DNA of 61,545 bases from a virus, in IMG/VR virus record IMGVR_UViG_3300040806_001491, positions 1 through 61,545 of that record. One strand, 5' to 3'. Under the pieces are notes generated by a model. The model had not been told where the DNA came from, ran no database searches, and was given only the letters and a program-made list of their open reading frames with translations. Positions within the stretch are counted from its first letter, which is position 1. Every line of letters starts with the position of its first letter. Of the stretch, positions 56,917 through 59,893 are shown one piece after another. The position numbers were made by a program, and so were the translations under genes.

Positions 56917-58689
56917 ATGATTAGAATAAAAGATTTGACAGTTAAAAATTTTATGAGTGTTGGCAATCAAACTCAAGCGGTTGATTTTAACAAAGACAAC
57001 CTTACCTTAGTGTTAGGAGAAAATCTAGACCAAGGAGGCGATGACAGCGGCTCGCGTAATGGTACAGGTAAAACAACTATTATTAATGCATTAAGTTATG
57101 CATTATACGGTCAAGCACTAACAAATATTAAACGTAACAACCTTATCAATAAAACAAACGGTAAAGGTATGTTAGTTACACTTCATTTCGAAAAAAATAA
57201 TACTGATTACCGAATTGAAAGAGGACGGTCGCCTAATGTACTAAAGTTTTTTATTAACGACCAAGAGCAAGAACTTATTGACGAGTCGCAAGGCGATAGT
57301 CGTAAAACACAAGAAGACATTAACGACTTGTTAGGTATGAGTCACGACATGTTTAAGCACGTTGTAGCACTCAACACCTATACAGAACCGTTTTTATCAA
57401 TGCGAGCAAACGACCAACGTGCTATCATTGAACAGTTATTAGGTATAACAATACTAAGTGAAAAGGCAGAAGCACTAAAAGAACAAGTTAGACAAACTAA
57501 AGATCTAATTACTGAAGAAACTCTCAAAATTAATGCAATACAAAGTGCCAATGAAAAAATTGATGTTACAATTAGTAGTTTAAAGAGCAAGCAAAAAGCC
57601 TGGCTTGGTAAACAGTCTACAGATATTATAAAATTAAAAGAATCTATCGACGAATTAGAACGTGTAAACATTGAAAAAGAGCTCGAAGCACACGAACAAT
57701 TAGCAAATTGGACTGAGATGAATAATGCTGTTACGGCTCTTAATAAAGAAAAAAGCACACTAGAGAGTGCATTACTACGTGCTACTAAATCTGTAGAAAA
57801 AGCAGAAAAAGACATCGCAAATCTCGAAGATGCTACTTGTTATACTTGTGGTCAAGCACTACACGACGAGAAAAAGCAAGAAATTGAAGAACGAAAGAGC
57901 AAAGAATTAAATGATGCGATTGCATATCAAACTGAAGTTGCTGATAAACTAACTGAAGTTATCGAAGGCTTAACAGAAATTGGTAACATTAATGGTCGTC
58001 CTAATACGTTTTATGAAACAGCCAAAGAAGCATATGAACATAGACAAAACGTTGATAGTTTAAGACAGGCTTGGCAGAATAAAAAAGACGAGGTTGATCC
58101 TTATAAAGAACAAATTGAAGACCTTGAACAAACAGCAATTCAAGATATTGATTGGACTATTGTAAATGATCTTAATAGTTTTAAAGACCATCAAGATTTT
58201 CTGTTAAAACTTCTTACAAACAAAGACAGTTTTATTCGTAAGAAAATTATTGATCAGAATTTAATGTATCTAAACAATAGATTAACTTCTTACTTAGATA
58301 AATTAGGATTGCCGCATCAAGTAGTATTCCAAAATGATCTAAATGTAGAAATTACACAACTTGGACAAGACTTAGATTTTGATAACTTGTCAAGAGGTGA
58401 GCGTAATAGATTAATTCTTGGTATGAGTTTTGCATTCCGTGACGTTTGGGAGAGCTTGTATCAAAAAATTAATCTGTTGTTTATCGATGAACTTATTGAT
58501 AGCGGTATGGATGCAAACGGAGTTGAAAATAGTTTAGGCATTCTTAAAAAGATGGGTCGTGAAGGCGAAAAGAATGTATACCTAATTTCACACAAAGACG
58601 AATTAGTCGGTCGTGTTAACAATGTAATGAAAGTTGTAAAAGAAAACGGATTTACAAGTTACGAAAACGACATTGAGATATTTGAATGA
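56917..58689 (+). CDS. gp46: Recombination ATPase subunit gp46 (Rad50/SbcC-like)
   Basis: This is a 590-residue protein. The P-loop GSRNGTGKT (residues 45-53) is followed by a coiled-coil region with the zinc hook CYTC (308-311) in the middle, the ABC signature LSRGERNRL (about 490) and the Walker B part LLFIDELIDSG (about 520). The coiled coils are short, as usual for T4-type gp46. It works with gp47. GATTCCA precedes ATG 56917 without a strong ribosome binding site, so translational coupling to gp47 is likely. The next gene overlaps it by 4 nt. Confidence 0.93.
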   Translation: MIRIKDLTVKNFMSVGNQTQAVDFNKDNLTLVLGENLDQGGDDSGSRNGTGKTTIINALSYALYGQALTNIKRNNLINKTNGKGMLVTLHFEKNNTDYRIERGRSPNVLKFFINDQEQELIDESQGDSRKTQEDINDLLGMSHDMFKHVVALNTYTEPFLSMRANDQRAIIEQLLGITILSEKAEALKEQVRQTKDLITEETLKINAIQSANEKIDVTISSLKSKQKAWLGKQSTDIIKLKESIDELERVNIEKELEAHEQLANWTEMNNAVTALNKEKSTLESALLRATKSVEKAEKDIANLEDATCYTCGQALHDEKKQEIEERKSKELNDAIAYQTEVADKLTEVIEGLTEIGNINGRPNTFYETAKEAYEHRQNVDSLRQAWQNKKDEVDPYKEQIEDLEQTAIQDIDWTIVNDLNSFKDHQDFLLKLLTNKDSFIRKKIIDQNLMYLNNRLTSYLDKLGLPHQVVFQNDLNVEITQLGQDLDFDNLSRGERNRLILGMSFAFRDVWESLYQKINLLFIDELIDSGMDANGVENSLGILKKMGREGEKNVYLISHKDELVGRVNNVMKVVKENGFTSYENDIEIFE

Positions 58690-58892
58690 GTGAACTTGAG
58701 AACGACACACACGACGAACTTGTGTTAGCATACTTAGAATATTTTAAGGCTAACGAAAAGTTTGAACAGAGAAAGTCTTATAGAACAAGACTTGCTGCTC
58801 GTCGTGCGTTGAGATCTCTAAGAGAACTTGCAAAAACACGAATGGACGAAATACAAGACACATATTATTCAAAAGGCACCGAAGAAGAATAG
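58686..58892 (+). CDS. Small basic helical protein downstream of gp46
   Basis: This 68-residue protein starts in an ATGA overlap with gp46. The middle is very basic and helical (QRKSYRTRLAARRALRSLRELAKTRMDE), suggesting nucleic acid or polymerase contact. It could be a small DNA-binding or recombination-associated factor, in line with its neighbours. No named family is recognised. Confidence 0.65.
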   Translation: MSELENDTHDELVLAYLEYFKANEKFEQRKSYRTRLAARRALRSLRELAKTRMDEIQDTYYSKGTEEE

Positions 58893-58911: not shown

Positions 58912-59361
58912 ATGCAATGGACTTATGAAGGCAAACCAGTTGATACAATACCAGACGAGTATGAAGGTTTTGTTTATCTCATAACCAATCTAACAACTGG
59001 GCAAAAGTACATAGGCAAGAAACTAGCAAAGTTTAAAACCACTAAGCCACCTCTCAAAGGCAAAAAGAATAAACGCAGAGGCTATAAAGAATCAGACTGG
59101 CGTGACTATTGGGGATCGTCAGACAGATTAAACGCAGATGTACAGGCACTAGGCCCAGAAAACTTCACAAGAGAAATATTATATCTTTGCAAAGGCAGAG
59201 GCGAAATGTCCTACATAGAGGCAAGAGAGCAATTTGACCGCCGTGTATTAGAGAGCGACGAGTATTACAATGGAATTATTAATGTTAGAGTTGGCGGTTC
59301 CGACAAATTGCGACAGGCATTGCTAGAACATAGCATCAAGGCAAAACAATCCGACACATAA
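58912..59361 (+). CDS. GIY-YIG-like endonuclease
   Basis: ATG 58912 is preferred (149 residues); the open frame extends back to 58828, inside the preceding gene. FVYLITN (20-26) and KYIGKK (32-37) are the GIY and YIG strands, and the rest includes DYWGSSDRLN, NFTREILYLC and a Glu in SYIEAREQF, as expected for the catalytic face. Such proteins are common in T4-like phages (Seg-like) and nick or cut DNA. Its gene lies directly before the structured non-coding region at 59362-59777, so a link to a mobile intron was considered (see rejected items). Confidence 0.75.
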   Translation: MQWTYEGKPVDTIPDEYEGFVYLITNLTTGQKYIGKKLAKFKTTKPPLKGKKNKRRGYKESDWRDYWGSSDRLNADVQALGPENFTREILYLCKGRGEMSYIEAREQFDRRVLESDEYYNGIINVRVGGSDKLRQALLEHSIKAKQSDT

Positions 59362-59777
59362 GGTTAGCGGGCCAGTTCAAAAATACCGCTGTGGAAAAAG
59401 CATCCGTATAGGAGCACACGTAACATACTGAGCGGCATCCGGTAGTAGGATGTTTGATTGGTATAGGCGGAATGTCGGCTGTCGAAAAAACGCACAATGT
59501 ACATAAAAACCGTATGCACAGGAACGAAGCAACGGGTAAAAGTATAGTGTATTAGCTATAATTTAGAAATTATTGCTTATAAGCTATATCTTGATGTCGA
59601 CGTAGGTTGGGAAAGGTCAGAGCCCATTGTACAGCGCAAAATACCTACTTCCAAGTCTCGGCTGTGACGAACTCACATGAAGCTAATTTTGAGACAGGCT
59701 GGAACCGTAACAGGTTCCGTCTGACTGAAACAATCTACATGAAACTTAAACATTAACACTTCGTGTTAATGTGTTTT
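59362..59777 (+). ncRNA. Candidate structured RNA of about 400 nt, unknown class
   Basis: No long open frame covers this stretch. I counted about 44% G+C in 59361-59730 (162 of 370 bases), well above the AT-rich neighbours. Hairpins and long-range pairs can be seen: AGCGG (59366-59370) with CCGCT (59386-59390), and a second AGCGG (59431-59435) that could compete; CATCC/GGATG (59436-59452); an AT-rich hairpin (about 59553-59586); GTAGGT/ACCTAC (59602-59648) enclosing TGGG/CCCA; GTCTC/GAGAC (59655-59695) enclosing TGTGA/TCACA (59663-59677); and GGAACC/GGTTCC (59701-59718). It ends in a terminator. I recognise no known RNA family. No clear promoter is visible just upstream, so it may come from read-through of the gp47-gp46 transcript, perhaps processed. 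Confidence 0.55.
59750..59777 (+). terminator. Intrinsic terminator at the end of the structured RNA
   Basis: ACATTAACAC (59750-59759), loop TTC, GTGTTAATGT (59763-59772) form a 10-bp stem followed by GTTTT. It closes the plus-strand early transcript and separates it from the late genes downstream. Confidence 0.8.
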
Positions 59778-59893
59778 ATCATAATAACTTATATCATACA
59801 AACGAAGTGTATAGTTTGAGCGTTAGCGAAAACTTGTTTCGTGCAACGAAACATATAAATACACTTAACAAACTATCTTAAGGATAACTCAGA
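59778..59893 (+). promoter_or_regulatory. Leader with hairpin and T4-type late promoter (TATAAATA at 59854-59861)
   Basis: TATAAATA (59854-59861) matches the T4 late consensus exactly, 33 nt before ATG 59894. It is preceded without a gap by a perfect 8-bp hairpin, TGTTTCGT-GCA-ACGAAACA (59835-59853). ACGAAGTGT (59802-59810) is the exact complement of ACACTTCGT (59756-59764) in the terminator loop, so an alternative pairing is possible. AAGGATAACTC precedes the start codon. Confidence 0.75.

Follow-up and report, generated by a model that had tools for sequence, protein, structure and literature searches.

RESULTS

A structured RNA occupies the longest gene-free gap in the window

The region directly downstream of gp46 and a GIY-YIG gene in a 61,545-nucleotide IMG/VR virus record (here called the window) almost certainly encodes a real, conserved structured RNA, as judged from covariation among homologous loci. 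With a probability of roughly 40%, we read it as a trans-acting phage RNA, derived from a transcript 3′ end, that presents two identical docking or seed sites to one external partner.

Open reading frame lists place the longest gene-free gap of the window at 59362 to 59893, between the GIY-YIG stop codon (59361) and the next gene (59894), in line with the initial annotation, which had described the only long gene-free stretch here; the structured RNA takes up the first 416 bases. The raised G+C content that it had reported was also observed, at 0.40 to 0.47 across the gap in 200-base steps compared to 0.348 for the whole window. Folding of the region surpassed that of shuffled sequences on the plus strand (z = −2.4; 2 of 100 shuffles as good) and was no better than shuffles on the minus strand (z = −1.0). 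Neither tRNA nor tmRNA was found in the region using Rfam and ARAGORN, Rfam returned no matches to the region at gathering threshold or at E < 0.1, and no promoter-like signal above chance was seen ahead of the RNA. A conserved protein, one of the refuting outcomes named in the initial annotation, is not encoded here, as indels break every frame and the spacing between two invariant blocks, taken modulo 3, is 24/23/16. In homologues, conservation begins at the GIY-YIG stop codon and ceases at the terminator, in agreement with 59362-59777, and class A RNAs are co-oriented with the GIY-YIG gene and begin at its stop codon.

Covariation defines a pseudoknotted secondary structure

A structure of 60 pairs was evaluated in an alignment of 66 sequences (63 of class A and 3 of a sister class). 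Pairing was retained in 88.6% of cells, and 43 pairs displayed double changes. Altogether, 448 double-change cells were observed, compared to 148.7 ± 12.1 after shuffling and 70 to 129 when partners were slid, and the covariation score was 0.319 versus 0.151. The homologue alignment proposed in the initial annotation thus uncovered covariation in many helices, strongly supporting its designation of the region as a large structured RNA candidate.

Comparison of homologues yields a 5′ domain (P1 to P3), a pseudoknotted core (P4/P6), and a 3′ domain in which a hairpin is flanked by two repeated modules, each bearing the same 7-mer (Table 1). Because P6 crosses P4, the core is a pseudoknot. P6 is invariant in most of class A, and compensatory changes were found in L384, L260, L282, and L046; specifically, GTAGGT/ACCTAC is replaced by GCAGGT/ACCTGC in L384 and by ACAGGT/ACCTGT in L260 and L282. 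The 3′ side of P5 carries a conserved GGAACGAAGC. Two other pairings were considered and rejected: GTAGGTTG/CAATCTAC, an RNAalifold alternative in class-A model R1, since L384, L260, and L282 compensate in ACCTAC instead, and GTCAGA/TCTGAC, which is invariant within class A and finds no support in the sister class. Of the two competing partners proposed initially for CCGCT (59386-59390), the one at 59366-59370 is real and forms P1, while the second AGCGG copy (59431-59435) is not conserved and looks like a chance occurrence. A terminator had been placed at the end of the region, and a hairpin is indeed found there; its 65% pairing probably reflects changes in hairpin length that leave it misaligned. 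Overall, the RNA is larger and stranger than first described, and we regard its structure as close to certain.

Table 1. Features of the RNA and its locus (window coordinates unless a locus is named)
Feature	Position	Strand	Evidence or remark
gp46 (SbcC-like), upstream, same orientation	56917..58689	+	phrog_77, E = 2.5e-102
GIY-YIG gene (SegE type), directly upstream	58912..59361	+	PF19835, E = 9.9e-36
Whole structured RNA	59362..59777	+	>130 IMG/VR homologous loci; covariation; GIY-YIG stop codon to terminator conserved
Hairpin P1	59366-59370 with 59386-59390	+	99.4% of cells paired; both-side changes in 4 of 5 pairs
Helix P2	59391..59419 (59391-59393 with 59417-59419; inner 59400-59401 with 59414-59415)	+	92-96% paired; compensatory changes
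Hairpin P3	59425..59464 (59425-59429 with 59460-59464)	+	98.1% paired; 71 double-change cells
Long-range helix P4	59498..59503 with 59628..59633	+	Five inner pairs 95.7% paired, both-side changes in all five
Hairpin P5	59510..59535 (59510-59513 with 59532-59535)	+	96.1% paired; compensatory changes
Length-variable hairpin	59539..59592	+	Covarying base pairs; short or missing in many homologues
Pseudoknot helix P6	59602..59607 (GTAGGT) with 59643..59648 (ACCTAC)	+	99.7% of cells paired
Small hairpin GGG-AAAGGTCAGAG-CCC inside P6	59609..59625	+	100% paired; loop AAAGGTCAGAG near-invariant; a single pair changed, from G-C to U-A
Twin motif copy 1 (ACATGAA)	59675..59681	+	Co-changes with copy 2
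Hairpin between twins (GGAACC/GGTTCC)	59701..59718	+	98.7% paired; both-side changes in 3 of 7 pairs
Twin motif copy 2 (ACATGAA)	59737..59743	+	Co-changes with copy 1
Intrinsic-terminator-like hairpin, RNA end	59750..59772	+	Double changes in all 10 pairs; 65% of cells pair
RF01718 matches in sister loci	L245:3460-3602; L265:3504-3647		First 141 nt of RNA

Two identical 7-mers change together

Near its 3′ end, the window RNA carries the feature that defines the twin family, two identical, co-changing 7-mers that flank a hairpin. In 109 of the 112 class-A RNAs compared, copy 1 equals copy 2, even though nine or more variants of the 7-mer exist. When the twin columns were left out of tree building, parsimony assigned 14 changes to copy 1 and 15 to copy 2, and at positions 1, 2, 3, and 5 all 10 changes occur in both copies. 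Every variable twin column covaries most strongly with its counterpart in the other copy, at 97 to 100% identity and with essentially no Watson-Crick pairing. Sister subclasses carry other sequences, each doubled at the same place (AGATAAT, AGATGAT, TGTCAAG, TGCCAAG, GGTGAAG, GGGTAAT, TGGTAAA, and TCGTGAT). We know of no RNA family with two co-changing identical 7-mers.

The bases that directly flank the two copies are unlike one another and have stayed so (CTC versus TCT), making gene conversion unlikely, and the spacing between copies ranges from approximately 46 to 70 nt as set by hairpin length, which counts against a DNA-level operator. Pairing of palindromic twins with one another was dismissed, as most variants (AGATAAT and TGTCAAG, for example) are non-palindromic. 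Complements of the twins were sought as well: no partner was found within the RNA, no fixed place within the locus, no enrichment near phage gene starts in seven phage genomes or contigs, and no common place across genomes in orthologous phage genes. Since the 7-mers stay identical while changing and have no complement in the RNA or locus, we infer that both dock the same external partner.

Homologues form multiple subclasses with exchangeable domains

Homologues were collected with the upstream GIY-YIG protein as bait, and the downstream region was examined in the first 80 loci; it was present in nearly all of those with enough downstream sequence. A protein-independent scan with an invariant 26-mer of the RNA returned at least 120 stretches. 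Among the matches listed, a GIY-YIG gene lay upstream in the same orientation in every case where the contig was long enough, with the RNA directly after it in most and extra sequence between the two in some. In total, 140 full-length copies and 20 with a short 5′ end were retained, and the genomes searched, with pieces joined, each held one copy. BLAST against 50,697 phage records yielded nothing below E = 2, and thus no isolate there has a recognizable copy; querying phage records at the DNA level with class A, B, D, and F sequences likewise returned no isolate, only a few class-A matches at E of 2 or more.

When GIY-YIG proteins of other lineages were used as baits, gp46-linked GIY-YIG genes were nearly always followed by an RNA-like stretch of one of several divergent kinds, and about ten divergent subclasses of the RNA occupy the locus in sister phages. 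Class A and class B2 (L265) have 112 nt in common across the twin-hairpin-twin region (77%; BLAST E = 5e-15), and L140, whose 3′ domain is of class-A type, has 39 nt of its 5′ domain in common with L254 of class E at 97%. A covariance model of the class-A 3′ domain matched L384 (1e-15), L260 (2e-13), and L282 (5e-8), and marginally L279 (0.03), with no significant match in RNA-free control loci. Class-A model R1 gave no significant detection of B or B2; the kinship of class A and B2 is therefore distant. More weakly, BLAST chains, locus, and common architecture suggest that the most divergent classes are also kin. Judged from these sequence comparisons, the 5′ domain and 3′ module are swapped between lineages, such that the RNA is an assembly of exchangeable domains.

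Downstream of the RNA terminator, the window holds a short element, AGTTTGAGCG-n4-CGAAAACT, and a second small hairpin (59811-59840). The element recurs after the terminator in most homologues and explains some of the BLAST links between classes. The phage GIY-YIG gene was also seen in contigs assigned to metagenome-assembled genomes (MAGs), namely L433 and L434 (Neomarinimicrobiota) and L435 (Gammaproteobacteria), of which L433 carries the RNA too (covariance model E = 3e-33); all three are probably phage contigs binned into MAGs.

Polynucleobacter-1 corresponds to the 5′ third of some sister RNAs

Rfam searches of the window and 12 divergent relatives, at gathering and relaxed thresholds, returned a single family, RF01718 (Polynucleobacter-1), in sister loci. 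Full-length matches correspond to the 5′ third of sister RNAs at the same gp46/GIY-YIG locus (L245, 99.7 bits; L265, 63.4 bits; gathering score, 37). The window RNA itself did not match the RF01718 model at gathering, nor at E ≤ 5 when the region was searched. The initial statement that the RNA belongs to no recognizable class therefore holds for this sequence, but with sister RNAs at its locus matching RF01718 at 63 to 100 bits, the family is not entirely detached from known classes. Matches to RsaH, mir-287, CrcZ, and RAGATH fell below their own gathering scores and were judged to be chance; the weak match of L259 to CrcZ (E = 0.019) was thus not taken as evidence of kinship. No match was obtained to Rfam or ARAGORN models of group I or II introns, RNase P, or tmRNA.

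An RNA-only pattern scan for RF01718 returned eight loci, seven of which are this RNA, each directly after a GIY-YIG gene. gp46 is visible in six of the seven, the exception (L481) being a contig too short upstream; the eighth locus lies inside a gene and is apparently a chance match. In L479, L481, and L484, an RF01718-type 5′ domain is combined with a 3′ domain like that of classes D/E. The RF01718 RNAs and the window RNA thus occupy the same position directly downstream of gp46/GIY-YIG, and homology between RF01718-bearing L265 and class A extends beyond the Rfam model, into the twin-hairpin-twin 3′ region, whereas the window's 5′ domain is unlike RF01718. Moreover, the family as described spans 141 nt, while the RNAs here span approximately 400 to 500 nt and have a 3′ domain absent from the model. 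RF01718 was published among 104 candidate motifs (Weinberg et al. 2010, PMC2864571). Its table entry lists Burkholderiales, fresh water, and estuary; of the three status columns, the second is marked "y", possibly to indicate that a cis-regulatory role was assigned. No further paper using the name Polynucleobacter-1 was found in the literature searched. A search for RF01718 in 369 genomes of one class was negative; as a control gave no signal either, absence is unproven. Overall, these comparisons argue that Polynucleobacter-1 is a fragment, one exchangeable domain, of a larger phage RNA.

The RNA is linked to a SegE-type GIY-YIG gene

Wherever flanking sequence suffices, the RNA comes after a SegE-type GIY-YIG gene, in the usual case where the gp47-gp46 operon ends. 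Among 154 scorable RNA-bearing loci, gp46 lies directly upstream in 120; another 30 have it 0.6 to 2.5 kb upstream, and the remaining 4, all of class F (L243, L267, L372, and L394), have it inverted or at another place; the GIY-YIG gene and RNA are kept together in all 154. Eight loci that were inspected (for example, L096, L122, and L152) have 243 to 294 nt between the GIY-YIG gene and an otherwise intact RNA, with an own reading frame in several of these inserts and the same conserved 5′ boundary of the RNA. A short frame (GIWPTGKHQG...) was noted at this place in L096 and L139, again with the boundary undisturbed.

The window's upstream gene belongs to the SegE_GIY-YIG endonucleases (PF19835), and its product retains the domain across the full profile. 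RNA was not found beside Melnitz-type GIY-YIG relatives (65 to 70% identical) or in several other contexts; the PF19835 relatives of a cyanophage pair, Melnitz, and a Sinorhizobium phage sit in other contexts and gave no RNA match. Phage records often label this SegE-type protein "NAD synthetase" (phrog_447), which appears to be a propagated misannotation. A gene for a 68-amino-acid basic protein without a Pfam or PHROG match lies between gp46 and the GIY-YIG gene in the window (58686-58892) and is kept in most class-A loci. Just ahead of the next gene (59894), the sequence TATAAATA (59854-59861) resembles a T4 late promoter, which probably places the RNA at the border between operons.

DISCUSSION

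The RNA described here, approximately 415 nt and noncoding, would most likely be liberated as the 3′ portion of the gp47-gp46-GIY-YIG transcript, with the intrinsic terminator forming its end. It may then act in trans as a two-seed guide or a two-site decoy, the core serving as scaffold. The partner of the 7-mers is probably a nucleic acid read by base pairing, such as an RNA or the DNA of the host, or a phage transcript from a distant locus; a protein seems less likely. Exchange of the 5′ domain and 3′ module between lineages would be expected for parts that face a host-specific partner. The RNA also appears to be an autonomous unit, intact and with the same boundary where an insert follows the GIY-YIG gene, and we count this toward a trans role. 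Weighing against it, the searches of phage sequences described above turned up no target for the twins, and no promoter-like signal above chance precedes the RNA.

The identical twin sites could alternatively be explained by a protein partner, and the strict linkage could mean that the RNA serves the GIY-YIG protein. It is conceivable, if doubtful, that the RNA is a partner or regulator of the adjacent nuclease, which would bind it at the two identical sites, perhaps as a dimer, and be directed or restrained by it, or cleave it. Consistent with this, RNAs found without a protein bait are all downstream of a GIY-YIG gene among the matches listed (contig permitting), as are all seven true RF01718-pattern matches; the pair stays together in the four loci with displaced or inverted gp46, and the domain is intact over its profile. 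Against it, the close relatives without the RNA indicate that the fold needs none, and twin variants differ between phages whose GIY-YIG proteins are approximately 85 to 95% identical to that of the window, a pace that fits base pairing better than a switch in protein specificity. Rather unlikely, in our estimate, is a cis-acting 3′ untranslated region that stabilizes the gp46/GIY-YIG mRNA, provides its termination, or places it under the control of a ligand. Co-orientation, the class A start at the stop codon, the terminator, the lack of a visible separate promoter, and the status entry for RF01718, if it denotes cis-regulation, agree with such a role; however, the unit persists despite inserted coding sequence and relocation of gp46, its size, pseudoknot, and near-invariant core exceed the needs of a stability hairpin, and two co-changing identical 7-mers would be left unexplained by a purely cis function.

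A degenerate or unrecognized intron or ribozyme (group I/II or RNase P-like) is very unlikely. Catalytic RNAs typically have a core of this kind, pseudoknotted and built from near-invariant blocks, and a homing-type GIY-YIG gene lies beside the RNA; however, none of the Rfam models for these families matches the window or 12 divergent relatives, even at relaxed E-values, and the RNA interrupts no gene, as the GIY-YIG gene before it is complete and the gene after it is a separate one. Least probable of all is a conserved signal read at the DNA level, such as an origin of replication or a packaging site next to the recombination genes; the single copy per genome searched and the proximity to gp46/gp47 would suit it, but compensatory changes in many helices, including the crossing one, largely refute it, and folding is strand-asymmetric with a twin spacing that follows hairpin length. 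A trans-acting RNA with two identical docking sites is the reading that we prefer.

CsrB/CrcZ-type protein-titrating RNAs and repeated-seed small RNAs also repeat a short unpaired motif as a docking site, which is fixed by one conserved protein or target. In contrast, the motif here drifts between phages while both copies stay equal. Some members of the group formed by GOLLD, ROOL, and OLE are phage associated, and the RNA described here is about half the size of GOLLD or less. No Rfam-model match to the three was obtained. Like them, it is long, elaborately folded, and noncoding, and their function is unsettled (PMC12286853); unlike them, it is fixed beside gp46/GIY-YIG and carries twin co-changing 7-mers.

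Together, these data describe an RNA that is widespread in marine T4-like phages, although comparison at the DNA level did not reveal it in the phage collection searched. The orphan Rfam family Polynucleobacter-1 turns out to be one exchangeable domain of a far larger phage RNA that occupies a genomic address of its own, and the evolutionary signature of the co-changing identical 7-mers is unusual, can be tested, and points toward one specific partner. It is an improbable thought that the pseudoknotted scaffold, the two copies of a drifting 7-nt address that have to remain identical, and the GIY-YIG protein together recognize one nucleic-acid partner and form a compact RNA-guided or RNA-licensed nuclease or a host-takeover system; if true, marine T4-like phages would widely possess an RNA machine of a new kind. 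Identification of the partner would uncover a further level at which phages control their hosts, or a novel pairing of RNA and nuclease.
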